Positions 955-64,000 of a DNA stretch of 64,000 nucleotides are shown here, in pieces. Every line of letters begins with the position of its first letter. The stretch's first letter is position 1. A program made the translations under genes and the position numbers. The notes below the pieces were generated by a model that worked only from the letters and a program-made list of their open reading frames with translations, was not told the origin of the DNA and did no database searches. This DNA comes from Paludibacteraceae bacterium (GTDB lineage: Bacteria > Bacteroidota > Bacteroidia > Bacteroidales > Paludibacteraceae), in the NCBI GenBank assembly GCA_024405875.1, contig JAKSOA010000004.1, positions 1-64,000 on the forward strand, read 5' to 3'.

Positions 955-3150
955 TTACGCCCAGAATTTTAATGGTTTCAGGAAGTGATAAGGTACGCCC
1001 CACTCTTGCAGCAAGCCTTTGGAATATAGCACGACAATAATAATTGCAAGTACTACAAGCACTGTCAAGGTTATTTTCCACCATCTGCCGGTATGTTTTG
1101 GTTTGAACGCATCCTCGCCTGCATATACAGGGAACTTTGCAAGTTGTGTGAGGGTGTTTCCAAACGGAATATTCACTACAACAGCGGTATTCATAGCCCA
1201 ACCGTTGGCGTTAAGCACCGGTGAAAGGTTACGCTTACGCAGTTTAAGCCAAGCCATAATCATTGCCGGACCTGAAATCAGGAGCATAATAGCAAGAATT
1301 GCAAGAGGCATTTGCCACCAGGCAAGGCTCAGGAATCCTTCAACACAAGCCAGTAAAATACCTCCTATTGCACCTATTGCCAAACCTATGGCGGCAAAGA
1401 TACCACAGAACTTGGCTATGTCAAATGGTTGTGCAGGTTTGGCGGCTTCACCAGATGTGGCTTGAGTACCTGCATCTGATATTGAGGCGGTTGCGTCTGA
1501 TGTAACCTTGCTGTCCTTCTCTGCCGCAAACTTGTTTACCTGGTCCTCTATGAATTTGGCAAACTTTCTGTAAGGTGACCAGAATGCCTGACGGATACTT
1601 ATAGGGTTATCAATTATCTTTGTAACTACTGCATCCCAATCATTGCCCTCACGGTCATAGAATATGGCGTTTTTACCAACAGCAAGATTATCAATATCAC
1701 CATCGGTCATAACGGCTACTATTGACATTGTGCCTGGCTTGCTCTTGCAGGTGCAGTCACAATATATAAGGTACATACCGCTGGCTCCCGCCTGTGCAGA
1801 CTGTTTGCCCATATCGGCAACCTTCAGGCAAAGATTACAACTGCGTTGGTCTATATATAAGGTACCTGCTTGGAATACAGACTTGGTGCTCTGTGTAGGA
1901 GAATAGAAATCAAGGAATGTGACATAGTTTTTCAGCAATGCGAAGATATCTCTTACATAGTGAAGCATCTTATCCACATCATTTATTGCATTTGCCTGTG
2001 CCTCAAATGATTTGTCTTTCTCCACCAATGCAAGCAGTTCTCCTTTTTTATCTGCTTTTACAATTTTAGCAACCGCTTCAGCACCCAAAGATTCCACTGC
2101 GGCACCGTCTTTTGCTCCTGTCCAAGCAATGTATGGGGCGAATTTAGCGGCAAATGTGTTCCACTGCTCCATTGTAAGTGTTTTTGTCTTAGGGAAATCA
2201 ACATCTATTACAAGGCTCTTGAATGTCTCCACCGCCGCTGTCCACGCAGGATTGATACCTTTATCAAGTGGCAGTTCCGTGGTTGCTGATATTCTTGCAA
2301 GCGGATATGCGGCAATATCCTCGCCACACTCAGCCAGATTCTTTGATGTAATGGCTTGGAATTGCTCCGCCGATACGTCAAGTGGAGACTGGGCGTCAGC
2401 GTTGAATGCTGTAAGACGGCAACGCATAAAGTAATCCTCCACCTTATCTTTTATAGCGTTATAGGCGTCAAGGGCTGCCGCTGTACTGTCTCCGTACGGG
2501 AATATGTTTGCCTTGTCAGCCTCTCCAGCCTTCTGCCAAGCGTCATATTTGGCGCAAGCGTCATAGAATGCCTCAATTTTATCAGCATCTGTGCCATCTT
2601 TACCGCTACGGTCTTGAACGGCACCCATTGTGGCTATTACAGATGATATAAGTTCCTGTATCTCTTTTTTATTAGATGACTCAGGTATAATTATTCCATC
2701 GCCGTTAAATGTGGTCTGGGCAAAAATGGCTATGCTGTCAGATGTTTGCGCTATAGAGATGCTATCCTGCTCAAGTTTCATATTCTTAAGAATCTGCTGA
2801 GCGGACTGATATAGCCTACCACCCTCCTCATTTTCCTGATTAATTTCCGCAAGTGGCAGTGTATCAGTTTGTTTCAGAAGATAATTAGGGTCTTTTAGCA
2901 CAGATGTTATCCAATCTGTAGCGGCTATAACCTCTTGCACACGTATTTTCCCGTCACAGTCTGTATCAAGATATTTTAATGTATCCTTGTCAAACTCCAA
3001 CCCCGATGTAGGCATAGAAAGCACGCTCCACATTTTTTGGTCAAGTTTGCTCAGGTTCTTAATGTCCTTCCCCGATGTCAGATTAACTCTCACATTGCCT
3101 CCGGCACTGATGAATTTCCAGGGTCCTTGGTTTAGTTTTACTTTTTTCAT
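955..3150 (-). CDS. EF-hand membrane protein of unknown function (731 aa)
   Basis: Residues 62-73 form a canonical EF-hand loop (Asp at loop positions 1, 3 and 5, Gly at 6, Ile at 8, Glu at 12), which predicts Ca2+ binding. There is no signal peptide. The long N-terminal part is soluble, with a Cys-rich patch (RSCNLC and YCDCTC) in its second half. Two hydrophobic helices lie near residues 590-660 and a third near the C-terminus. It therefore looks like a cytoplasmic domain anchored by a C-terminal membrane region. The protein is known to me only as an uncharacterised Bacteroidales type. No clear TAnnTTTG element lies upstream. Confidence 0.8.
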   Translation of the reverse strand: MKKVKLNQGPWKFISAGGNVRVNLTSGKDIKNLSKLDQKMWSVLSMPTSGLEFDKDTLKYLDTDCDGKIRVQEVIAATDWITSVLKDPNYLLKQTDTLPLAEINQENEEGGRLYQSAQQILKNMKLEQDSISIAQTSDSIAIFAQTTFNGDGIIIPESSNKKEIQELISSVIATMGAVQDRSGKDGTDADKIEAFYDACAKYDAWQKAGEADKANIFPYGDSTAAALDAYNAIKDKVEDYFMRCRLTAFNADAQSPLDVSAEQFQAITSKNLAECGEDIAAYPLARISATTELPLDKGINPAWTAAVETFKSLVIDVDFPKTKTLTMEQWNTFAAKFAPYIAWTGAKDGAAVESLGAEAVAKIVKADKKGELLALVEKDKSFEAQANAINDVDKMLHYVRDIFALLKNYVTFLDFYSPTQSTKSVFQAGTLYIDQRSCNLCLKVADMGKQSAQAGASGMYLIYCDCTCKSKPGTMSIVAVMTDGDIDNLAVGKNAIFYDREGNDWDAVVTKIIDNPISIRQAFWSPYRKFAKFIEDQVNKFAAEKDSKVTSDATASISDAGTQATSGEAAKPAQPFDIAKFCGIFAAIGLAIGAIGGILLACVEGFLSLAWWQMPLAILAIMLLISGPAMIMAWLKLRKRNLSPVLNANGWAMNTAVVVNIPFGNTLTQLAKFPVYAGEDAFKPKHTGRWWKITLTVLVVLAIIIVVLYSKGLLQEWGVPYHFLKPLKFWA

Positions 3151-3187
3151 AATTAGAAATTTTTATTTAGTTACTATATATATCATA

Positions 3188-3223
3188 TTAAATTCGTCAT
3201 CCTGATTAAATTCGTCATCCTGA
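3188..3223. repeat. Tandem duplication of an 18-bp unit
   Basis: The unit TTAAATTCGTCATCCTGA occurs twice back to back (3188-3205 and 3206-3223). The second copy runs into the left arm of the palindromic repeat that follows, suggesting slippage at the repeat boundary. Confidence 0.85.
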
Positions 3224-3279
3224 GCAGAGCGAAGGATCTCATAATCATTGTGAGATGCTTCGTTTCACTCAGCATGACG
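3213..3279. repeat. Intergenic palindromic repeat, full copy
   Basis: CGTCAT...CTGAG...GCGAAG...ATCTCA on the left pairs with TGAGAT...CTTCG...CTCAG...ATGACG on the right, giving a long imperfect hairpin. A related copy lies at 24348-24423 and a half copy at about 9132-9170. The right arm overlaps the 3' end of sufE and supplies its last codons and its stop. Confidence 0.85.
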
Positions 3280-3688
3280 GGGAGAACGCAACTCCATAGA
3301 TTTTCATCTGCTTAACCATTGCAAGCAATCCGTTTGAACGGGTTGGGGATAGATGCTCCTTAAGTCCTATCTTCTCTATAAAGTAGAGGTCCGCCTCCGC
3401 TATATCTTTTGCCGGTTGGTCTGACATTACTGAAATTAGCAATGAGAGTATGCCTTTGACTATTACTGCATCGGAGTCTCCTGTAAAAATAATGTTGCCG
3501 TTCTCAGTCTTCTCTGCATCAAGCCATACTCGGCTCTGACAACCTCTTATGAGGTTTTCATCTGTCTTCTTCTCATCGGGGAACGGTGGCAGGGCATTGC
3601 CTAACTCTATCAGGTAGGAATACTTGTCAAACCACTCCTCAAACGCTGAGAAGTCCTCAATTATTTGGTCTTGTATTTGGTTTATGTT
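3269..3688 (-). CDS. sufE: SufE family cysteine desulfurase activator
   Basis: SufE accepts sulfane sulfur from SufS through a conserved Cys and passes it to the Suf scaffold in the cytoplasm. The product shows the family features: the 'LPPFPDEKKTDENLIRGCQS' region with the acceptor Cys in GCQSRVW, followed by 'GDSDAVIVKGILSLL'. I chose the internal Met at 3688 because upstream residues do not resemble the family. The last residues and stop codon are encoded by the arm of a palindromic repeat. It is the last gene of the leftward suf operon, 53 bp after sufS. Confidence 0.93.
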   Translation of the reverse strand, partial: NINQIQDQIIEDFSAFEEWFDKYSYLIELGNALPPFPDEKKTDENLIRGCQSRVWLDAEKTENGNIIFTGDSDAVIVKGILSLLISVMSDQPAKDIAEADLYFIEKIGLKEHLSPTRSNGLLAMVKQMKIYGVAFSPSC

Positions 3689-3741: not shown

Positions 3742-4968
3742 TTATGTGAAGATTTTAACCACCTTATTAATTCCGTCAATCAGTTTGTCAATCTCATCTT
3801 TTGTGTTGTAGAATGCAAAAGATGCCCTAAGGGTGCCTTCTATGCCGTAGTGTTGCATTACAGGCTCAGCACAGTGATGTCCTGTACGCAGGGCAAGCCC
3901 TAACTTGTCAAGCAGTGTGCCTATATCGTAGTGGTGAATATTGCCCACATTCATAGATATTACCGCTCCCCTTTCAGGGGCGTTACCGTAGATGCGTAAG
4001 CCGTCAATCTCTTTAAGACGCTCTGTAGCGTATTTAAGCAAACCCTGCTCATACTCCGCAATATTCTCAATACCAATGTTTTGCACATACTCAAGTGCTG
4101 TGGCAAGGGCTGTAGAGCCAATAAAATCAGGGGTGCCAGCCTCAAATTTATATGGCAGCACATTAAATGTGGTCTTTTCAAAGGTGACACGCTCAATCAT
4201 CTCTCCGCCAGCCTGATACGGAACCATTTTATCCAATAGTTCCTCTTTGCCGTACAATACCCCGATGCCTGTAGGACCGTAAATCTTATGCCCTGAGAAT
4301 ACAAAGAAGTCTGCGTCAAGGTCTGTTACATTGACTTTTGTATGTGCTACAGACTGAGCCCCGTCTATAAGCACCGGCACATTATGGCTATGGGCTATAT
4401 CAATTATTTGTTTAACAGGATTTACCGTGCCTAAAGTATTGGAAATGTGTGTTACAGCAACTAAGGCTGTACGCTCCGTGAAGAGGTTTTTATATGTATC
4501 CAAATCAAGAACGCCATTATCTGCAAAAGGTATCACCTTTAGTTTCAGACCCTTACGCTCACATAAAAGTTGCCACGGAACTATGTTTGAGTGGTGTTCC
4601 ATCTCTGAAACTATAATCTCACTACCCTCTTTTAGCAACTCTCCGTAACTAAATGCCACAAGATTTATGGACTCTGTAGTGCCACGTGTAAAAATAATTT
4701 GGCTTGTACTCTTAGCCCCGATGAAATCCTTTACCGTACTGCGTGCCGACTCGTGCGCCTCTGTAGCAACTTGACTTAAATAGTGTACGCCCCTATGCAC
4801 ATTTGCATTATGAAGAAGATAGCCGTCATCTATTTTACGGACAACGCATAAAGGCTTTTGGGTGGTCGCCGCATTGTCAAAATAGACAAGGGACTTGCCA
4901 TACACTTTTTCAGAGAGGATTGGGAAATCAGCCCTGATGGATGCGATATTTTGGATTATACTATTCAT
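3742..4968 (-). CDS. sufS: SufS-type cysteine desulfurase
   Basis: This PLP enzyme converts L-cysteine to alanine and an enzyme-bound persulfide for Fe-S cluster assembly. The PLP lysine lies in FSGHKIYGPTG, the catalytic Cys in TGHHCAEP, and the N-terminal 'YFDNAATTQKP' is typical of the group II (SufS) branch. Length (408 aa from 4968) matches the family. The ATG at 4968 overlaps the sufD stop as ATGA, which implies translational coupling and excludes the longer upstream frame. Confidence 0.96.
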   Translation of the reverse strand: MNSIIQNIASIRADFPILSEKVYGKSLVYFDNAATTQKPLCVVRKIDDGYLLHNANVHRGVHYLSQVATEAHESARSTVKDFIGAKSTSQIIFTRGTTESINLVAFSYGELLKEGSEIIVSEMEHHSNIVPWQLLCERKGLKLKVIPFADNGVLDLDTYKNLFTERTALVAVTHISNTLGTVNPVKQIIDIAHSHNVPVLIDGAQSVAHTKVNVTDLDADFFVFSGHKIYGPTGIGVLYGKEELLDKMVPYQAGGEMIERVTFEKTTFNVLPYKFEAGTPDFIGSTALATALEYVQNIGIENIAEYEQGLLKYATERLKEIDGLRIYGNAPERGAVISMNVGNIHHYDIGTLLDKLGLALRTGHHCAEPVMQHYGIEGTLRASFAFYNTKDEIDKLIDGINKVVKIFT

Positions 4969-6305
4969 AATGTTGGTCGAGATGACGGGGAGCCACAAAT
5001 CATACAACTGTCACAAGATGAGTTCTCTTTTCTTAATCTTCTCTCTATAAGTAATTTAAGTCTGTCCTTTAGAGCAGGAATCCGCACCTTCTCCAATACG
5101 TCATATACAAAGGCTGACATAAGCAGCATTTTAGCCTCATCTTTAGATATTCCTCTTGAGAGCATATAGAACAGTGCTGTATCATCTAACTGCCCCACTG
5201 TGGCACCGTGATTACACTTTACATCATCGGCATATATCTCAAGTTGTGGCATTGTACGCATTTGAGCCTTGTCTGATACACATATATTTTTATTACTCTG
5301 CATGGCTACTGACTTCTGGGCATCAGGGAAAACCTTTATCATACCATAAAAATTACCCTTTGACTCATCATCAAGTATATATTTGAATGACTCAAAACTA
5401 TTAGTATCTGGTTTCTGATGCAGAATTTCAGTATCATTGCTTACATACTGAGTTTTATCAAGAAAACACATTCCACACAATGAGAGCGATGCGTGAGGTG
5501 CATTGAGACCTGCATTTATAGTATTGAGTGTCTGACAGTTATTAAGTGTAATTATATTTGAAACCACCTCACTGCCCTCTTGCTGGTCAATTAGCAATGA
5601 GCAGATATTTGTCATACCCTCAGTGGTGTTCTCCACTTTATAGTGGTCATACACAGCGTTTTTCCCTGCATAAACCTCTGTTACCCTATTTGCCAAATAT
5701 TTCACATTACCCGATGAGTGGTCACACACAAGAACCTGAGCCTTCGCCCCCTCTTCAAGTACTATAAGGTTATGTGCCACAGCCATAATATCAACATTGC
5801 CGTACATCAGGTTTACAAGTTGGATAGGCTTTTCAACCTGCACATTCTTAGGCACATAGACAAACAATCCGTCCTGGGCAAGCAGTGCGTTCAGAGCCTC
5901 ATTAGGGTTCTCTTTTATGTGCATCTGTTTGCCTATATATGATTTCACAAGTTCTGAATGTTTCTGTGCCGCCTCTTTTAGTGAGCATATTATAACGCCA
6001 GCGGGCAATGATTGCTGCTGTGGATTGGCATAGAATGTGTCATTTACAATATAGTAGAGATATGCCCCGATGTTTGGAATATCACAAGTAAAGAGTTTAT
6101 ATGGGTCATTCTGAATGGTATATCGTTCAAAATTGAGTCCAAAGTCTGTTTCATACTCTTTTATCAATCCTTTCCCGTCAGATTCGGCACGCTCCAACGC
6201 TTGAAAGCCCTCTTCACGCAAAGCATTCAACGCCTCAGAACTATTGTTCTCAATAATAGTTCTGTACTCCCTGTAAATATTAACATATTCTTCAGTATTC
6301 ACCAT
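4965..6305 (-). CDS. sufD: Fe-S cluster assembly protein SufD
   Basis: SufD pairs with SufB in the SufBC2D scaffold. The protein (446 aa from the ATG at 6305) has the beta-helix core typical of SufB/SufD, including 'NHGATVGQLDDTALFYMLSRG' near the C-terminus, where the His and following acidic residues are conserved. The C-terminus ends in a short Cys-containing tail (CDSCMIC). A TTG three codons upstream (6314) is an alternative start. The 7-bp tandem repeat region separates it from sufC. Confidence 0.94.
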   Translation of the reverse strand: MVNTEEYVNIYREYRTIIENNSSEALNALREEGFQALERAESDGKGLIKEYETDFGLNFERYTIQNDPYKLFTCDIPNIGAYLYYIVNDTFYANPQQQSLPAGVIICSLKEAAQKHSELVKSYIGKQMHIKENPNEALNALLAQDGLFVYVPKNVQVEKPIQLVNLMYGNVDIMAVAHNLIVLEEGAKAQVLVCDHSSGNVKYLANRVTEVYAGKNAVYDHYKVENTTEGMTNICSLLIDQQEGSEVVSNIITLNNCQTLNTINAGLNAPHASLSLCGMCFLDKTQYVSNDTEILHQKPDTNSFESFKYILDDESKGNFYGMIKVFPDAQKSVAMQSNKNICVSDKAQMRTMPQLEIYADDVKCNHGATVGQLDDTALFYMLSRGISKDEAKMLLMSAFVYDVLEKVRIPALKDRLKLLIERRLRKENSSCDSCMICGSPSSRPTL

Positions 6306-6376: not shown

Positions 6377-7127
6377 CTTTTATCCAATCATACCCTTTCT
6401 CTTCAAGAAGCAACGCAAGTTCCTTGCCTGCTGTCTTTACTATCTGTCCTTTGTAGAGTATATGCACCACATCGGGGACTATATAGTCTAAAAGCCTTTG
6501 ATAGTGGGTAATGACTATGCTTGCCGTATCTTTGCTTTTTAATTTATTAACCCCCGATGCCACTATTCTAAGGGCATCAATGTCAAGTCCTGAGTCTGTC
6601 TCATCAAGAATGGAGAGTTTTGGCTCAAGCATTGCCATCTGGAAAATCTCATTGCGTTTCTTCTCTCCGCCTGAAAAACCCTCATTTACAGAGCGGTTTG
6701 CAAGACGGTTATCAAGTTCCACCACCTCTTTCTTCTCACGCATAAGTTTTAGGAAATCTGTGGCACTAAGGGGTGGCAGATTCTTATGCTTACGATGCTC
6801 ATTTACAGCGGCACGCATAAAGTTCACCATACTGACACCCGGTATCTCAACAGGGTACTGGAAACTTAGGAACAGCCCTTCACGTGAACGCACCTCAGGC
6901 GGCATTGCAAGCAAATCCTTACCACAGAAAGTTACACTACCCTCTGTTACAGTATAGGCAGGATGCCCTGCAAGTACCGCTGACAATGTACTTTTTCCTG
7001 AGCCGTTAGGCCCCATTATGGCGTGCACCTCTCCAGACTTGACTTCAAGGTTTATTCCCCTTAAAATCTCCTTCCCTCCCACAGAGGCATGTAAATTTTC
7101 AATTTTCAGCATATAATTATTTTTCAT
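6372..7127 (-). CDS. sufC: Fe-S cluster assembly ATPase SufC (intact copy)
   Basis: SufC is the cytosolic ABC-type ATPase that drives SufBC2D remodelling. Walker A is GPNGSGKST, the ABC signature is [11 protein letters not shown], and Walker B is followed by the SufC-typical '[13 protein letters not shown]'. Length (251 aa) is normal. A second Met at codon 6 (7112) is also a plausible start. A second, broken copy of this gene lies upstream at 8573-9113 with an ATPase gene between them, so this copy must supply the function. A -7-like element at 7174-7167 may give it its own promoter. Confidence 0.96.
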   Translation of the reverse strand: MKNNYMLKIENLHASVGGKEILRGINLEVKSGEVHAIMGPNGSGKSTLSAVLAGHPAYTVTEGSVTFCGKDLLAMPPEVRSREGLFLSFQYPVEIPGVSMVNFMRAAVNEHRKHKNLPPLSATDFLKLMREKKEVVELDNRLANRSVNEGFSGGEKKRNEIFQMAMLEPKLSILDETDSGLDIDALRIVASGVNKLKSKDTASIVITHYQRLLDYIVPDVVHILYKGQIVKTAGKELALLLEEKGYDWIKE

Positions 7128-8578: not shown

Positions 8579-9113
8579 TTCATTTATCCAATCATACCCT
8601 TTCTCTTCAAGAAGCAATGCCAGCTCCTTGCCTGCTGTCTTTACTATCTGCCCTTTGTAAAGTATATGCACCACATCGGGGACTATATAGTCTAAAAGCC
8701 TCTGATAGTGAGTGATAACTATGCTTGCCGTATCAGGTGATTTTAATTTATTAACGCCCGATGCCACAATTCTAAGGGCATCAATGTCAAGTCCTGAGTC
8801 TGTCTCATCAAGAATGGAGAGTTTAGGCTCAAGCATTGCCATTTGGAAAATCTCATTGCGTTTCTTCTCTCCTCCTGAAAAGCCCTCATTTACAGAGCGG
8901 TTTGCAAGGCGGTTATCAAGTTACACTACCTTCTGTTACTGTATAGGCAGGGTGCCCTGCAAGTACTGCTGACAATGTACTTTTACCTGAGCCGTTAGGT
9001 CCCATTATGGCGTGTACCTCACCAGCATTAATTTCAAGGTTTATTCCCCTTAAAATCTCCTTCCCTCCCACAGAGGCATGTAAATTTTCAATTTTTAACA
9101 TATTATTATTCAT
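8573..9113 (-). pseudogene. Broken sufC duplicate with internal deletion
   Basis: The sequence is a near copy of the intact sufC. It keeps the start, Walker A, the signature and Walker B, and then ends in WINEC rather than WIKE. Relative to the intact copy, 215 bp are missing. The junction corresponds to AAGTT copies at 6714-6718 and 6929-6933 of the intact gene, so the deletion probably arose between 5-bp direct repeats. Since 215 is not a multiple of three, the frame is broken. It directly follows sufB, where sufC would normally sit. Confidence 0.95.
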
Positions 9114-9177: not shown

Positions 9178-10626
9178 TTACCCTATAGCATTATCTATAG
9201 AAATGCTCAAAAGTTTTTGAGCCTCCACGGCAAACTCCATTGGGAGTTTGTTGAACACCTCTTTTGCAAAACCGTTAACTATAAGCCCTACAGCATCTTC
9301 AGTGGAGATTCCACGCTGATTGCAGTAGAATAGTTGGTCTTCATTTATCTTGGATGTGCTTGCCTCATGCTCCACAATGGCGGTGTTGTTATGCACATCT
9401 ATTGTGGGGAATGTGTGTGCGCCACATTTATCTCCTAAAAGCAGACTGTCACACTGTGAGAAATTACGTCCGTTCTCCGCTCCCGATGTCATTCTTACAA
9501 TACCACGATACGAGTTTTCACTATGCCCTGCCGATATACCTTTTGATACTATTCGGCTTTTTGTGTTACGCCCTATATGTATCATCTTGGTACCTGTATC
9601 CGCCATCTGATAGTTATTGGTAACAGCCACAGAGTAGAACTCACCTATTGAGTTGTCTCCTTTTAGTACACAAGATGGGTATTTCCAAGTAAGAGCGGAA
9701 CCTGTCTCAACCTGTGTCCAAAACACTTTGGAACTCTCTCCTGCACACATCGCACGCTTGGTTACAAAATTAAAAATGCCTCCCTTGCCATCTTTATCGC
9801 CAGGATACCAATTCTGAACCGTAGAGTACTTGACTTCCGCTCGTTCATTTGCCACTATCTCAACTATTGCGGCGTGGAGTTGGTTCTCATCACGCATAGG
9901 GGCGGTACAACCCTCAAGATATGACACATACGCGTCATCATCAGCAACTATAAGTGTACGCTCAAACTGACCTGTATTAGAGGCGTTTATACGAAAATAT
10001 GTGGAGAGTTCCACAGGGCAACGCACCCCCTTAGGTATATAGGCAAATGAGCCGTCAGTAAATACTGCACAATTAAGTGCGGCAAAAAAGTTATCTGTGT
10101 ATGGCACTACTGAGCCAAGATACTTGCGCACCAAGTCAGGATATTGCTTGACCGCCTCACTTATGGAGCAAAAGATTATTCCAAGTTTTGCCAAATCCTC
10201 CTTGTAGGTGGTTTTAACAGAGGTGCTGTCCATTACGGCATCAACAGCCATACCTGAAAGCCGTTTCTGCTCCTCAAGCGGTATGCCTAACTTATTGAAT
10301 GTCTTAAGTATTTCAGGATCAACCTCATCAAGGCTATTCACCTGCTTTTTAAGAGGTGCGGCATAGTATGAAATGGCTTGAAAATCTATATCGGGGATAC
10401 GCAGATGAGCCCATTCAGGCATTTTCATTGTGAGCCAATGACGGTAAGCCTTTAATCTGAACTCAAGCAGCCACTCAGGTTCCTCTTTCTTCTGAGAAAT
10501 GAGACGGATTATATCCTCACTGAGTCCTTTGCGTACAACATCAGTCTCAACATCGGTGATGAAACCATACTTGTAATCACCCGATGTCAGTTTTGAAAAC
10601 TCGTCATCATTGTTAATCTTCCCCAT
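9178..10626 (-). CDS. sufB: Fe-S cluster assembly protein SufB
   Basis: SufB is the main scaffold subunit of SufBC2D. The 482-aa product is of normal length and shows the SufB core, including '[17 protein letters not shown]' and '[13 protein letters not shown]', and the C-terminal '[20 protein letters not shown]' with the conserved Glu and His. Its start overlaps the end of cvpA by 14 bp, consistent with a joint transcript from the rimP-nusA-infB operon. Its normal downstream neighbour sufC is replaced by the broken copy. Confidence 0.96.
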
Positions 10627-55198: not shown

Positions 55199-56045
55199 GA
55201 TTGAAATAATTTCTACGTTTTGTGGAGATGCGCATCATATTACGCAACTCATCAACATTCTCACATTCCACCGCCTTCTTCAGTTTTTCAAACTGACCTG
55301 CAAACAGTTCCATCTGCTTCAGCAGTTCCTTCTTGTTCATTATGAAAAGTTCACTCCACATCTCATCATTTATGTTGGCAATACGTGTAAGGTCTCTGAA
55401 AGAGTCTCCCGTAAAACGGACTAGGTCTTTGGAATCCTTACAATTCATAAGTGACACGGCTATGCAGTGTGTAAGTTGGCTTAGAAAGCCTATCATCTCA
55501 TCGTGATGCTCAGGGGTGAGACGTGATATTCTTGTGCAGCCTATAATGCGTCCAAGTTCCTCACAATCCTCTATCGCACTCTCCTTATTCTCAGGTGTAG
55601 GGGTGACAATATAGTTAGCCCCTTTAAAAATATCACCCGATGCGTTTTGTACTCCACTTGTCTCCTTGCCTGCCATAGGGTGAGCGCCAATGAATTCAAC
55701 ATCGGGGCGGAGAATAGATTGAACTTTATAGACCACAGAGCCCTTGACACCTGTCACATCAGTAAGCATCGCACCTGGTTTGAGGAACTGCTGATATCGC
55801 TCAATCCAACTGATGAATGTATGCGGGTATAATGAAAAGACCACGATGTCAAATTGCCCGACATAGCCGGCGTCAACGTCCGCCATTCCGTGACGAATAA
55901 GCCCGCGACTCAAGGCATTGTCAATGGAACTTTGAGAGCGGGTTATGGCACCAACCTCATAGCCGGCCTTTGTGAGAGCGTCAGCATAACTGCCACCCAT
56001 CAACCCTAAGCCAACTATCAATATCTTCTTATCCTTGCTTAACAT
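55194..56045 (-). CDS. tyrA: Prephenate dehydrogenase
   Basis: The NAD(P)-binding motif GLGLMGGSYA lies at the N-terminus, and 'GAHPMAGKETSGVQNA' holds a conserved catalytic-region His. The C-terminal helical domain has LTHCIAVSLM. Length (283 aa) is that of a monofunctional enzyme without ACT or chorismate mutase domain. It makes 4-hydroxyphenylpyruvate for tyrosine synthesis. Its ATG overlaps the aroC stop (TAATG). Confidence 0.93.
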   Translation of the reverse strand: MLSKDKKILIVGLGLMGGSYADALTKAGYEVGAITRSQSSIDNALSRGLIRHGMADVDAGYVGQFDIVVFSLYPHTFISWIERYQQFLKPGAMLTDVTGVKGSVVYKVQSILRPDVEFIGAHPMAGKETSGVQNASGDIFKGANYIVTPTPENKESAIEDCEELGRIIGCTRISRLTPEHHDEMIGFLSQLTHCIAVSLMNCKDSKDLVRFTGDSFRDLTRIANINDEMWSELFIMNKKELLKQMELFAGQFEKLKKAVECENVDELRNMMRISTKRRNYFNH

Positions 56046-57049
56046 TATCTCAAACTATCTGTTCCACCTTTAAGTGACAGCATATCACATAACACTATAG
56101 CCACAAGGCTTGTAATTACAATACAGATGCGGCGTACTATGGCAGGGTCGTGTCTGCCTTTTATTTCAAGTTTGCACTCCTCACCTGTAATAAAATCCAC
56201 ACTTTGCTGCTCTTTGGCTATTGACGGAGTTGGTTTTACCGCCGTATTAAACACAATTGGCATTCCGTTTGATATGCCACCGTTTATACCTCCGTTATTA
56301 TTTGTAGTTGTACAGATTTTACCATCTCTTATACAGAACGGGTCATTTGCCTCCGACCCTCTCATTTCAGAGAATTTAAAGCCAGCGCCAAACTCAACAC
56401 CCTTTACCCCGCCTATTGCAAACAGAGCCTTTGCTATGACACCTTCAAGAGAATCAAACCAAGGCTCGCCCACTCCTGCCTGAAGTCCTGTAATTACAGT
56501 CTGAACCTTTCCACCTACTGAGTCCAAATCATTTTTGGCACTCATAATCTCAGCCTCAACATCGGAGCCTCCGCCACAACTGAGTATGCTTGTCTCTATT
56601 CTGACCCCCTTTTTCTCCAACGCCTTAAGAGCAATGGCTCCTGCCGCCACGATGCCTGCGGTTATTCTTCCGCTAAAGTGTCCGCCACCTCTGTAATCTT
56701 CAAAACCGCAATACTTTATATGAGCGGTATAATCTGCGTGTGACGGACGGGCTTTGCCTCTCATTGCCTCATAGTCAGCGCTACGTTTGTTCTCATTAGG
56801 GATTATTATACATATAGGAGCCCCTGTTGTGAACCCGTTGAAAACTCCGCTCACAATTCTGAAATTGTCTTTCTCAACTCTTGCGGTCTCAGTCGGACCT
56901 TGAGGACGGCGTTTTGATAACTGTTCCGCTATGAACGCCTCACTAACCTCAATGCCAGGTGCCATACCGTCAAGTACAGCACCTATCTCATCTCCGTGTG
57001 ATTCGCCAAAAAGCGTTAGGATAACATTTGTACCTATGCTGTTCTTCAT
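56045..57049 (-). CDS. aroC: Chorismate synthase
   Basis: AroC makes chorismate from EPSP with reduced FMN. Conserved parts include [16 protein letters not shown], '[28 protein letters not shown]' and [10 protein letters not shown] near the end. The 334-aa length is slightly short for the family. The start overlaps the rubrerythrin stop as ATGA, so the two are translationally coupled. Confidence 0.96.
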
Positions 57050-57665: not shown

Positions 57666-58346
57666 TCAACTATTCTCTCTTGCGTACGCTATCGCCTGGT
57701 TCAGAATATTATTAAACTCCACACACCGTGTGAAATTCTCCATCACCCAATCATAAAGTCCATCTGAGAAGAGAATGTCATCGGGGGTTGACCTGCCTAT
57801 TGAATATGATTTATATTTCAGCAACTCAACATATTTGAAATCGGCAGGAAAACCTTTGGGAACCTTCACGGTACGGGCGTTATCTGAGAGGTCAAAGCCA
57901 CTTGCGGCATTCAACGCCTTGATAAAGGCATCGGGGTTGTCAAAAATCTCCTCACGCACACTCTCAAGTTCCTTAGGAGGCAGACAATAGGCACCTGCGG
58001 CTATCATATTACGCCCTATATAGTCATTCAGGTGTGACTCTATATGAAAATAGTATCCCGCAAAACCTGATTTCTTACCAAAAGGGCAAACATAAGCGCC
58101 TATGTGAGACTTGTACGGACGCTTGTCAGGAGAGAACCTTATGTCACGGTTAATGCGGTAAGTGCAGTCACTCACCTTTAGGCCTGAGACCAACGGGTCT
58201 ATAGCCGCCACTCCCGTTATAAGTTTCTCCGTCCACTCAGCCCACTCAGCCTTTACTTCATTCCAACGGCTGCGGTTGGCGTCAAACCACGCCTTATTGT
58301 TATTATCGGCAAGTTCATCAATGAACTTTACAATATCCTTCATCAT
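57666..58346 (-). CDS. DUF2461 family protein
   Basis: The 226-aa product matches the DUF2461 (TIGR02453) pattern: 'NNNKAWFDANRSRWNEVKAEW' at the start, 'RINRDIRFSPDKRPYKSHIGAYV' in the middle and a C-terminal 'DDILFSDGLYDWVMENF'. Function is unknown. It sits between aroC-linked genes and the 5'-nucleotidase gene. Confidence 0.88.
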   Translation of the reverse strand: MMKDIVKFIDELADNNNKAWFDANRSRWNEVKAEWAEWTEKLITGVAAIDPLVSGLKVSDCTYRINRDIRFSPDKRPYKSHIGAYVCPFGKKSGFAGYYFHIESHLNDYIGRNMIAAGAYCLPPKELESVREEIFDNPDAFIKALNAASGFDLSDNARTVKVPKGFPADFKYVELLKYKSYSIGRSTPDDILFSDGLYDWVMENFTRCVEFNNILNQAIAYARENS

Positions 58347-58357: not shown

Positions 58358-59695
58358 CTATTTGGTCACATCAGTATTTGAGCCGGCAAAATATTTGATT
58401 AATATGTCATTTGACTTTATACCGGTCTGTCTGGCTTCTCTCTTATGCTTGAAATCAGAAGTCTCATATATGAATGTGTTTACAGCAACTGTATAATACC
58501 TGTTTTTTTTGAGTTTCCCCTTCTCATACCCCGATGTTATAGGTTCCCTGTCTTTATCAGACTTCTGACACGCGGCAAGCAAATCCTCTATCTCTGACGG
58601 AGTCAGTTCATAAATTACAATGTCATTATCAAAAGGGTCAAGGCGGTATAGGTCTGCAAGAGTGAACACCCCGCTGTGGATTGTGTCTATTCTCACACCA
58701 CCGTAGTTCTGTACCGCGATGTCAACCCCGCAAGCCTGTCTGAGAACATCGGCTTTAAGTTCTCCCACAGCCAGCGTGCCTGTGTAATCCTCATCAAACA
58801 CAGTAACCACCCTGTTGAACAGTTCATTATTAGAATAGAAATCAACAAGGGCTTTTGCCGCAGGGTGAGGTTTGAACTCAGATAAGTCAAATGTCCGGCA
58901 ACTGCGTCCCGCCACCTTGCCGTCAACAATATCAAAAACTGTGAGGGTGGCGTATTTCAAATATTTCTCAGACTGCGTTATAAGCACACTATCTACAACC
59001 GTACCGTCCTTTACAAGGGTGTGTGAATGCCCACCCACTATCTCATCAACTATGCCGTAGCATTGTTTTGCAAGCAGTTTATCTGCATCATAGCCTAAAT
59101 GGGTAAGGTATATAAGCACATTGCAACTGTCTCTCAATGCGTAAAAATCCTTAGCCCTTGAAAGAGGGTCATCAAAAGAGAAGCCGGAGACATCTGACGG
59201 CAAAGCATCAGGAATCCCTTTGCTGTTCAACTCTATAAGACCAACCACGGCAACTTTCAAACCTGAACGGGTCTTGAATATCCTGTAAGGCTCAAACTTC
59301 CATCCGAGGGAGTCCGCCACATATCCGTTTGCCATAAGGTATGGGAAATCAGACAATTTCATATTTGTCTTAAAGTCATCAAAAACAAAGTCAAACTCGT
59401 GATTTCCTACGACAGAGGCGTCAAAACCGGCAAAATTCATAAGCGAGGTCATAGGCAAAGAGGGCGGGTTATAAAAATCATTGAACGGATTGCCTGTTCG
59501 GTTATCACCTGCTGAAAGCAGGAGAAAATCGGGGTAAATGAGTCTGAGACTATCTGATAGTGTCATCAGATTAGGGATACCCGTATATGTGCCGTGCATA
59601 TCATTCACGCTTAGCACAGCAAGTTTGCAATTCTGAGCCACCGCCAGGCAAGGAATCAGAATTACGAATGTCAGAAATCTCTTAAAGCAGTTCAT
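58358..59695 (-). CDS. Secreted 5'-nucleotidase/metallophosphatase
   Basis: A signal peptide (about residues 1-20) leads into a metallophosphoesterase domain with SVNDMHG, LSAGDN, VVGNHEFDF and GGHSHT metal-binding motifs. The C-terminal half is a 5'-nucleotidase substrate domain with NYGGVR and FDNDIVIYELTP. It probably releases phosphate from periplasmic nucleotides. It overlaps aroK by 14 bp, so both are likely on one transcript. Confidence 0.92.
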   Translation of the reverse strand: MNCFKRFLTFVILIPCLAVAQNCKLAVLSVNDMHGTYTGIPNLMTLSDSLRLIYPDFLLLSAGDNRTGNPFNDFYNPPSLPMTSLMNFAGFDASVVGNHEFDFVFDDFKTNMKLSDFPYLMANGYVADSLGWKFEPYRIFKTRSGLKVAVVGLIELNSKGIPDALPSDVSGFSFDDPLSRAKDFYALRDSCNVLIYLTHLGYDADKLLAKQCYGIVDEIVGGHSHTLVKDGTVVDSVLITQSEKYLKYATLTVFDIVDGKVAGRSCRTFDLSEFKPHPAAKALVDFYSNNELFNRVVTVFDEDYTGTLAVGELKADVLRQACGVDIAVQNYGGVRIDTIHSGVFTLADLYRLDPFDNDIVIYELTPSEIEDLLAACQKSDKDREPITSGYEKGKLKKNRYYTVAVNTFIYETSDFKHKREARQTGIKSNDILIKYFAGSNTDVTK

Positions 59696-60161
59696 ATATC
59701 TTATTTACGGCATCTTGCGGAGTGCCATTGTTATCTATTACATAGTCGGCGGCATCGTGGTATATAGGCATACGCTTCTCATACATTGCACGCAAAGCCT
59801 CCGTGTTACTTGAGAGCGGACGGTCAGGGGTAGGCGTGAGAAACTCAGGCTTCCTGTCTAAAAAAATTATAGTACCGTTCTGTTTCAAAACTGAGACATT
59901 TGACGGATTAAGAACCGCTCCGCCGCCAAGTGCTATCACTACTCCCGCACGCTTTGCAACGCTCTCTATCACCCTGCTCTCAATAGCCCTGAAAACCGCC
60001 TCTCCCTCTTTTGCGAATATTTCAGGTATGCCGCGTCCCTCACTCTCAACTATAGTGGAATCTGTGTCAATAAAATCAACGCCAAGCCTCTCTGAGAGCA
60101 TATAACCCACCGTTGACTTGCCTGATGACGGCATTCCGCAAAGCACAATATTTCTCTTCAT
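59682..60161 (-). CDS. aroK: Shikimate kinase
   Basis: Walker A GMPSSGKST, DTDSTIVE, 'EGEAVFRAIESRVI' and the GGGAVL loop are all as in AroK. Length (159 aa) is slightly short but complete. It phosphorylates shikimate and is the first gene of the leftward aromatic cluster that ends with aroD-aroA. Confidence 0.95.
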   Translation of the reverse strand: MKRNIVLCGMPSSGKSTVGYMLSERLGVDFIDTDSTIVESEGRGIPEIFAKEGEAVFRAIESRVIESVAKRAGVVIALGGGAVLNPSNVSVLKQNGTIIFLDRKPEFLTPTPDRPLSSNTEALRAMYEKRMPIYHDAADYVIDNNGTPQDAVNKIYELL

Positions 60162-60214: not shown

Positions 60215-60239
60215 CAATGATTTTTAACACCAATTTTCT

Positions 60240-61232
60240 ATGGAACACAGAAGAACCAAACATTTGGCGGTGGTTTTATTCGCCTTGAGCATACTTACTC
60301 TATGCGGCATAGTATTTGTAGTACTCCAGTTATTCACCTCAAAAGAGTTCTCATACGAGTTCTGCTGCTGCGCCATAGGTATGATTTCAACCGCTCTTGT
60401 CACATACTTCCTTTTGCAAGGTCAGTCAAGCAGCGTGGAGCAGATAAACAAGAACACAAAGATTTTTGAGAAGAAGATGGAGGTATTCTCCGCATTCTCA
60501 CAGAAACTCAATGATATAGTCAGAGAGGGGCGCATATCTGACAAGGAGGCTATTGACCTGCAGTTCCAGGTGAGTTACCTTGACACACACATAAATTCCC
60601 CTGAAAGAATCAAGGAGATAAGTGAGCACGTTAAAAAAATAGTTGAGGGTATTGAGAACAAATGGAAGCAACACGACCTTCTCTCTGAACTCTTCGCCAT
60701 AAACAAATCCATCAGGGCGGAACTCTACCCTATGCTTGAGCAAGAGGACAAAAAAGATTGCCGTGAGCAGGCTGTAAACAACTTCAGATACCTTGCCATA
60801 CCTTCTGACAAAGAGGCGGCTTATATGCAATGTAACAAAATAATCCACGCATTACACGCATTGGATAATGCCGACAGAGAGAATATCCTCAAGAAATTCC
60901 GCATAAGCATAGAGAACTACAACACTCTTATTTTTGACATAAGGAAAGACATTCTCATTTATGGCGGTCACAGATGGAACGCTGTGTTCGCAGAGGTTAA
61001 ATTCTCAGATGACGCAAAAAATGTCAATATACGCGTATGGCATAAAGACCAGGCAAAGAGAGGTATTCTTAACTATCCCGCTTTCAAGTCAGGGAAACTT
61101 AAACTTGAGGAGAGTAACGGACTCTACTGGTTTGACTGCTCAAAACTCAAGACAGAAGATGAGATAGTCCGCTTTATCTACCACGATGTGCTTCCTAATC
61201 TTCTTGAGTACAGGAAGACACTTGCCTGGTAA
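60240..61232 (+). CDS. Membrane-anchored coiled-coil protein of unknown function (330 aa)
   Basis: Two hydrophobic helices at about residues 8-32 and 40-62 are followed by a charged, partly coiled-coil cytoplasmic region (about 65-160) and an alpha/beta-looking C-terminal half with Trp-rich 'GHRWNAVFAEVKF' and NVNIRVWHKDQ. I recognise no family. It is expressed from its own consensus promoter and converges on rmuC with adjacent stops. Confidence 0.75.
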   Translation: MEHRRTKHLAVVLFALSILTLCGIVFVVLQLFTSKEFSYEFCCCAIGMISTALVTYFLLQGQSSSVEQINKNTKIFEKKMEVFSAFSQKLNDIVREGRISDKEAIDLQFQVSYLDTHINSPERIKEISEHVKKIVEGIENKWKQHDLLSELFAINKSIRAELYPMLEQEDKKDCREQAVNNFRYLAIPSDKEAAYMQCNKIIHALHALDNADRENILKKFRISIENYNTLIFDIRKDILIYGGHRWNAVFAEVKFSDDAKNVNIRVWHKDQAKRGILNYPAFKSGKLKLEESNGLYWFDCSKLKTEDEIVRFIYHDVLPNLLEYRKTLAW

Positions 61233-62426
61233 TCACTCTATCTGCTCCAACTCTGTAGATGAAAGTTCAGCAGGAATGGACTTGCCTGATTTAACCCCTA
61301 ATTTTATCAGACTTTGAACCTTGCCTGAAAGGTTGCCCTTGCCATCTTTGAGTTGACCACGCGCCTCCTCGTACGCTTTCTGAGCCTGCTCAATCTTCTC
61401 TCCCAACTTCTTGTAGTTCTCAGCAAAAGCGGCATATTTTTCATATATGCCCTCAGCCGCCTTAATTATAGCTTGCACATTCTCCTCCTGACGGCTGTTC
61501 TGCCAAGTCTTGAGAATAAGGTCAAGTGCGAGCATAAGGTTTGTGGGATTGATAATGATAACACCCTTTTTATACGCCTTCTGCCCTAACTGTGGGTCTT
61601 TGTTCATAGCAAGAATGTAACTACCCTCATTAGGCACAAACATAAGCACAAGCGGTATGGAATCTGGCACCTCACTCTTGTAATTCTTGTTTGAGAGTTC
61701 AGTCACGTGTTTCCAGATGGAGTCATAATTCTCCTTGACAGCCCTGTTTCTCTCCTCATCAGACGCCGCACCCACATAATCTGTATAAGCGGTCAGAGAG
61801 ACTTTTGAATCTATTATTATGGCTGAGCCGTCAGCCGCCTTCACTATGACATCGGGGCGTAAATCCCTGCCGTCCTCATTCTTTACACTCATCTGTACAT
61901 AATACTCTCTACCCTCTCTTAATCCACTGTCATTCAGAATATTAGTAAGCACTTGCTCTCCCCAGTCACCCTGCACCTTACCACGATTCTTAAGAGCCTC
62001 AGCAAGGTCTTGAGTAACCTTGTCACGGTTTTGGTCGTGGAGTAACACATTTTGGATGGACTCGTGCAACGTACTCGTAGCCTTGTCATTATTCTCCTTT
62101 GTCTTGTTCACAAGTTCACGCAACTCTTTTAGTTCCCTTTGCAGAGGGTCCACCACCCCGTTCATCTGCTCACGGTTAGCCTGCTTAAACTCCGCCTCAC
62201 GTACTTTCAGTTGCTCCTCAAACTGAGATGTCATCTGCTCACGGGCAAGTTTCAGTTCATTCTCCGCCTGTTTGGCACGCAACCCGGCGTTCTCCTCTGA
62301 CGCATCAAGTCTTGCCTGCAACACAGAATGCTCAGCCCTTGAGATGTTCTTCATTACTAAATAAGTGACAACGGCGGCAATCCCTGCCCCGATAACAAAA
62401 ACAAGAAAATATAAAAGGAGTTCCAT
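61233..62426 (-). CDS. rmuC: RmuC family DNA recombination protein
   Basis: An N-terminal membrane helix (about 1-22) and a long coiled coil (30-135) precede the RmuC domain, with 'RGKVQGDWGEQVLTNILNDSGLREG', RPDVIVKAADGSAIIIDSKV and LALDLILKTWQ. The domain has a PDDEXK-like nuclease core, and RmuC limits DNA inversions at repeats in E. coli. Length (397 aa) is normal. Confidence 0.93.
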   Translation of the reverse strand: MELLLYFLVFVIGAGIAAVVTYLVMKNISRAEHSVLQARLDASEENAGLRAKQAENELKLAREQMTSQFEEQLKVREAEFKQANREQMNGVVDPLQRELKELRELVNKTKENNDKATSTLHESIQNVLLHDQNRDKVTQDLAEALKNRGKVQGDWGEQVLTNILNDSGLREGREYYVQMSVKNEDGRDLRPDVIVKAADGSAIIIDSKVSLTAYTDYVGAASDEERNRAVKENYDSIWKHVTELSNKNYKSEVPDSIPLVLMFVPNEGSYILAMNKDPQLGQKAYKKGVIIINPTNLMLALDLILKTWQNSRQEENVQAIIKAAEGIYEKYAAFAENYKKLGEKIEQAQKAYEEARGQLKDGKGNLSGKVQSLIKLGVKSGKSIPAELSSTELEQIE

Positions 62427-62429
62427 ATC

Positions 62430-63035: not shown

Positions 63036-63051
63036 TTTAATAATTTTTTTG

Positions 63052-63059
63052 CAAAGATA
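63052..63059 (-). promoter_or_regulatory. -7 element of the regulator-like gene
   Basis: TATCTTTG on the minus strand lies 16 bp before the ATG at 63035. A weaker TACTTTG box on the plus strand (about 63072-63078) may serve the kinase gene. Confidence 0.6.
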
Positions 63060-63087
63060 GATAAAACCATTTACTTTGCAACCTGAA

Positions 63088-64000
63088 ATGACAAAGACTG
63101 GTGAATCTTCTGAAATAATAACATCCACCACACCAGATAAGACGGAGGAATTGGAGTTCAATCAACTGACTGAACTTAAATCGTTGTCTCAAAATCATAA
63201 ACTCTACAAGCAAAGTGTAGGCGGCAAAGTCTATTTCATAAAGGCAATTAACAAGGCTCAGGGCAATTACGCAAAAGAGAAAGCCTTGTTGGAGAGAGAA
63301 CACACCATACTTTCAGGGGCAAGCAGCAAGCATATTGTCAAGTCATACGGCATATTTCATAATGACCAACTTGGCTACTACCTGAAACTTGATTACATTG
63401 AAGGCTCCTCTCTTGAAAAATTTCTACAATCTAACCCCGATGTCAAAACCCGCACCCTTATTCTGAATGATATTTTTGAAGCCATAGAGGATTTACACGC
63501 ACAAGGCATTGTCCACAATGACATAAAGCCGCAGAACTTTATGGTCAGGAAAGAGGGAAACCGTGCGGTTCTTATAGATTTTGGGTTGTCTGACTCAGAT
63601 TCATACACAGAAAAGAGCCAAGGCTACACAAAGCAATACGCATCTCCTGAGCAGACAAATGGCGGTGAAACACATATACCTACAGACATCTATGCCTTAG
63701 GCAAAATAATCAGGTTAATATTTCCACACAGATACGCATTTATTTGCCGCAAGTGCAGGCGTACAAACCCAAAACACCGATACCAAAATATTTCTGAAAT
63801 TAAGAGTGCCATTGCCGCGGCGGACAGAGCCAGAGCGTTGCTGCTTCTGCTTCCGCTAATTATAATCGCCGCCACACTTTGGTGGTTCAGTCCAAACAAC
63901 CACCCTACTGCCACTCCACCTGAAGAGGTGAACCCTGTAATAGTTAAAGATACGGTTTTTAAGACGGATACCATCAGTAGTATTGACACTATAAAACCCA
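63088..64000 (+). CDS. Membrane-anchored Ser/Thr protein kinase, partial (runs off the window)
   Basis: The frame is open from the ATG to the window end (304 codons). The kinase core is clear: KVYFIKAINK with the ATP-binding Lys, catalytic loop VHNDIKPQNF (Arg of HRD replaced by Asn), IDFGLSD for DFG, and YASPEQT for the activation end. A membrane helix (about residues 251-269) follows, then a Thr/Asp-rich outer region that is cut by the window edge. It is a eukaryotic-type kinase with an extracytoplasmic C-terminal part. Confidence 0.9.
   Translation, partial: MTKTGESSEIITSTTPDKTEELEFNQLTELKSLSQNHKLYKQSVGGKVYFIKAINKAQGNYAKEKALLEREHTILSGASSKHIVKSYGIFHNDQLGYYLKLDYIEGSSLEKFLQSNPDVKTRTLILNDIFEAIEDLHAQGIVHNDIKPQNFMVRKEGNRAVLIDFGLSDSDSYTEKSQGYTKQYASPEQTNGGETHIPTDIYALGKIIRLIFPHRYAFICRKCRRTNPKHRYQNISEIKSAIAAADRARALLLLLPLIIIAATLWWFSPNNHPTATPPEEVNPVIVKDTVFKTDTISSIDTIKP

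Follow-up and report, generated by a model that had tools for sequence, protein, structure and literature searches.

The asymmetric word CCMCGATR, which is not a palindrome, is strongly over-represented in the genome of a gut bacterium of the Bacteroidales that is related to Paludibacter, and sites in the same orientation exclude each other within 600 bp. The word may be a one-way signpost for a DNA-repair or DNA-exchange machine. Our leading but tentative reading, held at somewhat less than even confidence, is a strand-polar, genome-wide 'self' word that is read one way and acts like Chi, most likely through a helicase-nuclease of the AddAB kind. A DNA-uptake sequence was ranked as less likely.

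Results

The word in the window and in the draft genome

The window, that is, the whole 64-kb stretch of DNA analysed, was scanned on both strands for the exact octamer CCCCGATG. The sequence-only reading had reported about 33 copies on both strands, and all 33 were confirmed at their coordinates (18 + and 15 -, with no further copies), compared with a mean of 0.85 and a maximum of 4 in 100 dinucleotide shuffles. It had also mentioned about ten sites matching seven of eight bases. Such sites exist, but ten was an undercount: 55 words had exactly one mismatch, or 88 including the exact copies (shuffles 24.2, sd 5.4). Among its examples, 9481 and 47518 were correct, whereas 8757 and 31037 are placed properly at 8756 and 31034. 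The motif CCMCGATR has 59 sites in the window, with a widest gap of 3.7 kb (Table 1). An apparent 'cold' core region for the exact word at 8.7-23.2 kb was gone once CCMCGATR was used. Two exact sites, 6470 and 8674, both lie inside one duplicated segment. Scanning the window for Rfam families and tRNAs gave no matches.

Table 1. CCMCGATR sites in the 64-kb window. Exact sites are CCCCGATG; variant sites are CCCCGATA, CCACGATA or CCACGATG from the CCMCGATR scan.
Site	Word	Position	Strand	Scan
variant	CCCCGATA	944..951	-	CCMCGATR
exact	CCCCGATG	3001..3008	+	exact
exact	CCCCGATG	3070..3077	+	exact
exact	CCCCGATG	3574..3581	-	exact
exact	CCCCGATG	4260..4267	+	exact
exact	CCCCGATG	4716..4723	+	exact
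exact	CCCCGATG	6065..6072	+	exact
exact, duplicated segment with 8674	CCCCGATG	6470..6477	-	exact
exact	CCCCGATG	6552..6559	+	exact
exact, duplicated segment with 6470	CCCCGATG	8674..8681	-	exact
variant	CCACGATA	9503..9510	+	CCMCGATR
variant	CCCCGATA	10389..10396	-	CCMCGATR
variant	CCCCGATA	13713..13720	-	CCMCGATR
variant	CCACGATA	15570..15577	+	CCMCGATR
variant	CCACGATA	19275..19282	+	CCMCGATR
variant	CCACGATA	19851..19858	-	CCMCGATR
variant	CCACGATG	21219..21226	-	CCMCGATR
exact	CCCCGATG	23212..23219	+	exact
exact	CCCCGATG	23790..23797	+	exact
variant	CCCCGATA	24048..24055	+	CCMCGATR
exact	CCCCGATG	26886..26893	-	exact
exact	CCCCGATG	27332..27339	+	exact
variant	CCACGATG	28075..28082	+	CCMCGATR
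variant	CCACGATG	28918..28925	+	CCMCGATR
exact	CCCCGATG	29044..29051	+	exact
exact	CCCCGATG	29962..29969	-	exact
exact	CCCCGATG	30925..30932	+	exact
variant	CCACGATA	31217..31224	-	CCMCGATR
variant	CCACGATA	33262..33269	-	CCMCGATR
exact	CCCCGATG	33742..33749	-	exact
variant	CCACGATA	33838..33845	+	CCMCGATR
variant	CCACGATG	35288..35295	-	CCMCGATR
exact	CCCCGATG	36301..36308	+	exact
exact	CCCCGATG	39919..39926	+	exact
variant	CCACGATG	40513..40520	-	CCMCGATR
exact	CCCCGATG	40561..40568	-	exact
exact	CCCCGATG	40867..40874	+	exact
variant	CCCCGATA	42555..42562	+	CCMCGATR
exact	CCCCGATG	44661..44668	-	exact
variant	CCACGATG	44754..44761	+	CCMCGATR
variant	CCACGATG	48244..48251	-	CCMCGATR
exact	CCCCGATG	49701..49708	-	exact
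exact	CCCCGATG	49840..49847	+	exact
exact	CCCCGATG	51692..51699	-	exact
exact	CCCCGATG	51879..51886	+	exact
variant	CCACGATG	53387..53394	+	CCMCGATR
exact	CCCCGATG	53618..53625	-	exact
variant	CCCCGATA	54831..54838	-	CCMCGATR
exact	CCCCGATG	55700..55707	-	exact
variant	CCACGATG	55841..55848	+	CCMCGATR
variant	CCACGATG	56647..56654	+	CCMCGATR
exact	CCCCGATG	57779..57786	-	exact
exact	CCCCGATG	57929..57936	-	exact
exact	CCCCGATG	58529..58536	+	exact
variant	CCACGATG	59753..59760	-	CCMCGATR
variant	CCACGATG	61181..61188	+	CCMCGATR
exact	CCCCGATG	61850..61857	-	exact
variant	CCCCGATA	62387..62394	+	CCMCGATR
exact	CCCCGATG	63435..63442	+	exact

Enrichment was also found elsewhere in the draft genome, which held 665 copies of CCCCGATG (331 + and 334 -) against 16 of the reversed word. 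A Markov-model count gave the same result: 309 copies were observed in 850 kb, compared with 8.2, 2.7 and 10.6 expected under models of order 3, 2 and 1, an enrichment of about 38-fold over the order-3 model. The one-mismatch excess was due mostly to CCACGATG and CCCCGATA and was not spread across all positions. The full motif, CCMCGATR, had 585 sites in the 850 kb, one per 1.45 kb. They occurred across most of the genome sampled, at 3 to 26 per 20-kb stretch, and one prophage region carried 3 sites where 23.3 were expected. Conservation of flanking bases, which had been proposed as a check, did not go beyond weak preferences for A before the word and C at the second base after it. Replication-strand bias had been proposed as another, and no clear bias was seen (226 leading and 234 lagging for 460 of the 585 sites, by an indirect GC3-skew proxy on unordered contigs); these counts do not support a replication-oriented word. 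Transcription terminators were likewise rejected, with 29 of 585 sites intergenic and few close inverted pairs: 14 pairs lay less than 50 bp apart, 9 of them in opposite orientation.

Predicted genes hold nearly all sites, as would be the case if the word reflected ordinary composition, a preference for certain codons or dipeptides, or a mobile repeat scattered through the genome. However, sense and antisense sites were alike (288 and 268, with no clear gene-strand bias), and 146 coding sites in a 464-kb sample compared with 5.7, at most 13, in 100 within-gene synonymous-codon shuffles. Codon and amino-acid use accounts for about 6 of these 146, and the shuffles rule it out as the cause. A mobile repeat was rejected by the flanks, which are not conserved except in the one duplicated segment (6470, 8674). 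This explanation is contradicted for G000 and is highly improbable. The shuffles and the sense/antisense parity support the earlier claim that the word exists at the DNA level, independent of genes and codons. Neither of the two outcomes that the sequence-only reading had named as refuting it, counts near expectation after codon correction or no enrichment elsewhere in the genome, was seen.

Sites in the same orientation exclude each other

Pairs of CCMCGATR sites closer than 600 bp were compared by orientation. In one half of the data, 40 pairs were in the same orientation (null 64) and 92 in the opposite orientation (null 73). In the other, previously unseen half, the identical cut-off gave 38 same-orientation pairs (null 65.6, sd 7.9) and 78 opposite pairs (null 73.1, sd 8.8). 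Both halves together contained 78 same and 170 opposite pairs, a same-orientation share of 0.31, against a mean of 0.551 and a minimum of 0.405 in 150 control patterns. Between 600 and 5000 bp the share was 0.47-0.50 in all six bins, with no avoidance. The exclusion persisted among pairs not inside one ORF (22 same vs 47 opposite, p 0.0035), and it was not significant for the exact octamer in the second half (10 vs 17). It was weaker in four other word-rich genomes (71 same vs 89 expected; 98 opposite vs 95 expected). Taken genome by genome, neighbour orientation was uneven in G000 and G003 and not in G001, G002 or G010. The orientation-specific exclusion indirectly favours one-way reading, as for Chi, over an orientation-blind uptake word.

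The word marks one clade of the genus

Presence in related genomes, also suggested earlier, held for part of the genus. RpoB was used as the marker for the tree of 16 genomes, of which six were word-rich and formed one clade; in samples of each of the 10 word-poor genomes no word of like strength was seen. Spelling differed within the clade, giving dialects among the five genomes profiled (all but G012). The sister pair G002/G010 shares one dialect and the sister pair G000/G003 does not; G010 has 1015 sites of its own dialect pattern per Mb. Between G002 and G010, 29 of 37 G002 sites were intact, and identity was 0.938 at sites against 0.870 in flanks, compared with 0.840 and 0.862 for control words. 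No gene marking the word-rich clade was found among nine chosen families in the 16 genomes. The pattern is consistent with one gain inside the genus and several spellings.

Genes of the AddAB type

PDDEXK_1, the nuclease domain that AddA and AddB share, was matched in all 16 genomes, and two matches were found in 12 (6/6 word-rich and 6/10 word-poor). In G000, both matching proteins have the nuclease at the C terminus; one is a UvrD helicase of 1036 aa, and the second is 973 aa long. Their domain order suggests that they are AddA and AddB, respectively. Since AddA/AddB-type matches also occur in word-poor genomes, such genes do not by themselves account for the word. On the stem of the word-rich clade, the AddB-like protein showed by eye no clear extra rate compared with RpoB.

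Discussion

Chi switches degradation to recombination. Similarly, a helicase-nuclease of the AddAB kind would meet CCMCGATR while processing DNA ends, whether broken or incoming, and a word in the right orientation would switch it from degradation to recombination. The reader would be a one-way machine, that machine AddAB, and recombination the outcome. Each chromosome stretch would benefit from having roughly one word per orientation; a nearby second word would add nothing in the same orientation and would be independent in the opposite one. Like Chi, CCMCGATR is a short asymmetric word iterated genome-wide, with an exclusion pattern that suggests one-way reading, AddA/AddB-type genes in the genome and a prophage region nearly without sites; CCCCGATG is also over-represented under several Markov models (orders 1-3, 850 kb), as is asked of Chi motifs. 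Unlike Chi, the word has no leading-strand polarity by the GC3-skew proxy and is confined to one clade, whereas AddA/AddB-type matches also occur outside it. Its enrichment (about 38-fold, order 3) also seems stronger than that of Chi. Published Chi motifs were searched for via leading-strand polarity in a study that also lists non-polarised candidates (PMC8022716).

The uptake words of Neisseriaceae (DUS) and Pasteurellaceae (USS) are raised in number by transformation. If CCMCGATR were such a word, a surface or periplasmic receptor would prefer word-bearing fragments, transformation would raise the copy number, and receptor change would yield dialects. The many copies, strand balance and intragenic spread resemble DUS and USS, and hundreds to thousands of copies without strand bias are characteristic of a DUS (here 665 exact, 331/334). 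The prophage region nearly without the word also fits, as do the dialects, which fall within a clade of the RpoB tree; DUS dialects track phylogeny according to Frye et al. (PMC3630211). ComEC was matched in 6/6 word-rich and 6/10 word-poor genomes, DprA in 5/6 and 8/10, and HHH_3 (ComEA-type) in 16/16. Transformation in Riemerella, also of the Bacteroidota, requires ComEC, DprA, ComF, RecA and other proteins whose function is unknown, according to a previous report (PMC8459023). The type IV pilus/T2SS ATPase PF00437, by contrast, exceeded the cut-off in none of the 16 genomes and thereby gave no sign of the pilus-based uptake machine of DUS genomes; two weak sub-threshold matches were both in word-poor genomes. 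Bacteroidota may employ another uptake machine than the type IV pilus. Inverted DUS pairs at terminators are numerous according to the same authors (PMC3630211), whereas they are no feature here, and the one-mismatch excess is concentrated in two variants. The scale of the exclusion equals the 600 bp from the word at which short-fragment uptake in Haemophilus reaches baseline according to one report (PMC7811141), but word orientation had no effect on uptake there according to another (PMC1939737). An uptake word should therefore show exclusion in both orientations, and only same-orientation CCMCGATR sites exclude each other. We consider uptake possible but doubtful. Slightly more doubtful is a third kind of directional self-mark, neither Chi nor uptake, with one clade, a reach of about 600 bases, both replication strands and drifting spelling, or else one word with a role in uptake as well as in recombination.

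A binding site for an abundant, clade-specific DNA-structuring or chromosome-segregation protein would agree with sites over most of the sampled genome, the single clade and the depleted prophage region. It is unlikely, since segregation words have a replication-strand bias that is missing here, the density is uneven, and the 600-bp orientation exclusion does not follow in any obvious way. More unlikely still is a word linked to methylation, comparable to cyanobacterial HIP1, that a methylase and the repair associated with it create or maintain. HIP1 and the alternate HIPs are likewise octamers iterated at high frequency, with other words in relatives, and are swapped along with methylases; they are, however, palindromes tied to methylases (PMC4390886), and CCMCGATR is asymmetric. 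The type-I N6 methylase PF02384 was matched in 6/6 word-rich genomes, but also in 6/10 word-poor ones, and the G001 match was weak (22 bits). The C5 methylase PF00145, D12 (PF02086) and N6_N4 (PF01555) were matched in 3/6, 2/6 and 3/6 word-rich draft genomes, and G010, with the 1015 sites per Mb given above, matched PF02384 only. No family among these four sets the word-rich genomes apart; the genomes are drafts, in which absences are not final. Among the explanations offered by the sequence-only reading, recombination and uptake are retained; methylation gained no support.

The best-known self-words that are strongly iterated and have dialects are those of Neisseriaceae, Pasteurellaceae and cyanobacteria. 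Among the matches listed in literature searches that covered few subscription journals, none had a title dealing with a word of this kind in Bacteroidota. A clear case in gut Bacteroidales would allow the origin and drift of self-words to be traced. The orientation-exclusion test uses sequence only and is applicable to any iterated word for which one-way and orientation-blind readers are compared.

Abundance of the word in the window and the draft genome

The sequence-only reading had listed 33 exact copies of the octamer CCCCGATG in the window. This list was confirmed as complete, with 18 sites on the + strand and 15 on the - strand, against 0.85 in shuffled sequences. Its estimate of about ten near-matches was an undercount, since 88 sites with at most one mismatch were present against 24.2. 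Of four example coordinates for near-matches, two were right and two were wrong by 1 and 3. Ordinary core genes were present in the window, among them those for IF-2, Der, NadA, an aspartyl-type tRNA synthetase, and enzymes of the shikimate pathway. By the Der protein, the nearest named relatives were a "Paludibacteraceae bacterium" found in horse faeces (92%) and, at 88% each, two RUG genomes labelled "uncultured Bacteroidales" and a "Muribaculaceae bacterium" of the goat reticulum.

The enrichment extended beyond the window. The draft genome, G000 (38 contigs, 1.85 Mb, 79% complete), contained 331 + 334 copies of CCCCGATG, compared with 9 + 7 of the reversed word. Under an order-3 Markov model, 156 exact copies were observed in 464 kb of G000 where 4.2 were expected. 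Among the 24 one-mismatch words in this sample, CCACGATG (82 vs 7.3) and CCCCGATA (34 vs 4.4) were outstanding, and the flanks favoured a preceding A and a C two positions beyond the word. Over-representation there extended to AT-rich 12-mers, for example AATTAACAATTA (32 copies) and AATTAGTAATTA (24). In 850 kb of G000, CCCCGATG was the top-scoring octamer with at least 30 copies (309 observed, 8.2 expected), and CCACGATG, CCCCGATA, and CCACGATA were found 138, 72, and 66 times vs 13.5, 8.4, and 13.9 expected. The four spellings joined, CCMCGATR, gave 585 sites vs 43.9 expected; the window held 59, with gaps up to 3.7 kb.

Codon choice had been judged insufficient to explain the word, and this was borne out by synonymous-codon shuffling within each of 380 G000 ORFs, predicted by simply picking the longest ORFs, with a coding fraction of 0.89: 146 coding sites were observed vs 5.7 after shuffling (100 shuffles, maximum 13). 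A gene-level effect as the cause of the word was thereby ruled out. CCMCGATR also occurred in both orientations relative to genes, as had been claimed for the exact octamer in the window (288 sense, 268 antisense, and 29 intergenic in 850 kb).

Orientation-dependent exclusion of neighbouring sites

CCMCGATR showed no replication-strand preference, with 226 leading and 234 lagging sites (third-position GC skew on unordered contigs, 460 of 585 sites). Adjacent sites were often opposed: the orientation was the same in 120 of 289 pairs in the first half of the G000 sequence and in 103 of 268 in the second. For 200 control 7-mers, the mean same-orientation share was 0.550, and 2 were as low as 0.415. 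Neighbours were mostly opposed because same-orientation pairs, and not opposite pairs, were scarce below 600 bp (first half: 40 same vs 64 expected; 92 opposite vs 73 expected). The exclusion was replicated in the second half, a further 386 kb of G000, with the 600-bp cut-off unchanged: same pairs numbered 38 (null 65.6, sd 7.9), opposite pairs 78 (null 73.1, sd 8.8); the binomial p for this contrast was 0.00026, which is approximate, as pairs are not fully independent.

With both halves joined, 78 same and 170 opposite pairs lay within 600 bp, a same share of 0.31, and in all six bins between 600 and 5000 bp it was 0.47-0.50. Random degenerate patterns of similar abundance (n = 150) had a mean share of 0.551 and a lowest of 0.405. 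The exclusion was seen inside ORFs (56 same vs 123 opposite) and in other pairs (22 vs 47). The exact octamer alone showed the same direction over both halves (22 vs 45) and was not significant in the second half (10 vs 17). In four relatives examined with their own dialect patterns (variant spellings of the word), same pairs numbered 71 vs 89 expected and opposite pairs 98 vs 95; in one of them, G003, counts were tiny and opposite pairs were low too (5 vs 10.5 expected).

Distribution, dialects, and turnover in the genus

The word was abundant in six of 16 genomes of the genus (G000 665, G002 367, G010 303, G001 287, G012 282, G003 199), and the ten word-poor genomes had 10 to 77 copies. Four of these were classed as word-poor despite a 2.5- to 4.3-fold excess over the reversed word (G014 56/22, G005 77/26, G007 54/17, G015 73/17). 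The word-rich genomes formed one clade (support 100/99) in an RpoB tree of 14 rows; G005 and G015 were absent from it for want of an RpoB match, and G004 and G014 were partial. No octamer of comparable strength was found in samples of the ten word-poor genomes (13-58 kb each, except G009 and G011). The top octamer of G011 (94 kb) had z 4.6, and the high scores of G008, G009, and G006 came from repeats bunched at few places. The strongest dispersed word, TCGTCCAA in G005 (17 vs 3.1 expected in 58 kb, 13 bins), may reflect codon use or be a weak word in its own right. In equal-sized samples of five word-rich genomes, word-family octamers scored 9.6 to 22.1.

Dialects were profiled per 100 kb in five word-rich genomes (G000, G001, G002, G003, and G010). 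CCMCGATR reached 64.7 in G000 and 20.7-33.9 in the others; (A/T)CCCGATR 46.7 in G002, 65.0 in G010, and 3.5-12.8 elsewhere; CNNCGATGC 46.3 in G001, 43.3 in G003, and 10.1-23.3 elsewhere; and CGSCGATG 36.6 in G001 and 6.2-10.6 elsewhere. The sisters G002 and G010 had a common dialect, and G000 and G003, sisters in the RpoB tree, had different ones.

From G002 to G010, 29 of 37 sites were intact, with identity of 0.938 at sites vs 0.870 in flanks; control words showed no excess (0.840 vs 0.862). The reverse comparison gave 29 of 54 (0.897 vs 0.866), G000 to its close relative L001 6 of 12 (0.906 vs 0.839), and G001 to its sister G012 4 of 10 (0.867 vs 0.832). Across dialects, sites were mostly less identical than flanks (G000 to G003, 13 of 58 intact, 0.711 vs 0.776), and from G001 to G003 they were level (0.744 vs 0.742). 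These results suggest that sites tend to be retained inside a dialect and newly formed once it changes, in small sets with common ancestry.

Prophage region and other loci

A prophage region of G000 (tape measure, DUF2586, and S78 protease), whose limits are our own reading, had 3 CCMCGATR sites vs 23.3 expected; it was the only such region looked at. Cas genes flank it on opposite sides, an arrangement suggestive of phage insertion into a type II CRISPR locus, and the reverse transcriptase next to a prophage tail region possibly belongs to a diversity-generating retroelement.

Coordinates and records of individual features
Feature	Sequence	Position or record
48-bp segment around the word, copies differing at one base	window	6450-6497; 8654-8701
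Cas1 and Cas2-like small ORF (by size and place)	G000 contig C1	101463-102723
Prophage region	G000 contig C1	103-137 kb
RVT_1 reverse transcriptase adjoining the prophage tail region	G000 contig C1	103161-104456 (L086:3161-4456)
Cas9 domains	G000 contig C1	139763-142873
TCGTCCAA sample	G005	L117-L120
TTAGGAGTT-like unit repeated in clusters, few places	G008, G009	L129-L136
ComEC, short frame of 414-448 aa	six word-rich genomes	L222-L227

What may read the word

The fit of CCCCGATG/CCMCGATR to Chi, uptake sequences, and methylation-linked words was mixed, and it was therefore filed in none of these families. We tentatively read it as a word for recombination or repair that is recognised in one direction, in the manner of Chi, which is possible rather than probable. 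A machine that moves along DNA and recognises the word from one side only would produce orientation-dependent redundancy, as could recognition on single strands; with a receptor blind to orientation, redundancy would be expected in both pair types. The polarity of the exclusion fits Chi. Two nuclease matches, which we take to be AddA and AddB, were found in all six word-rich drafts and in 6 of 10 word-poor drafts, and this occurrence in word-poor genomes argues against Chi. Chi motifs have been searched for via leading-strand polarity, according to an excerpt of PMC8022716, and CCMCGATR differs in showing none by GC skew.

A role as a DNA-uptake sequence appears doubtful. Copy number and dialects speak for it, by comparison with the DUS described in part of PMC3630211, as do the competence genes found in genus genomes and a Bacteroidota member that transforms with partly unknown proteins (PMC8459023, excerpt). 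However, no type IV pilus ATPase over the cut-off was found in the drafts, in which gene absences may be assembly gaps, and Haemophilus uptake was found to be independent of orientation (PMC1939737, excerpt), whereas exclusion here affects same-orientation pairs only. Short-fragment uptake peaks in Haemophilus have a 600-bp reach, equal to the exclusion range here (PMC7811141, excerpt). A methylation-linked word is very improbable, as no gene among the methylase families tested marked out the word-rich drafts, with the same reservation on absences.

An HHH_3 protein of 710-745 aa (E below 1e-27) was found in the word-poor G007, G011, G014, and G015, the other twelve genomes being without a match that strong. 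In the G000 ComEC, Pfam gave the Competence domain only, and the gene was followed by those for a DHH protein and a phosphoglycerate mutase.
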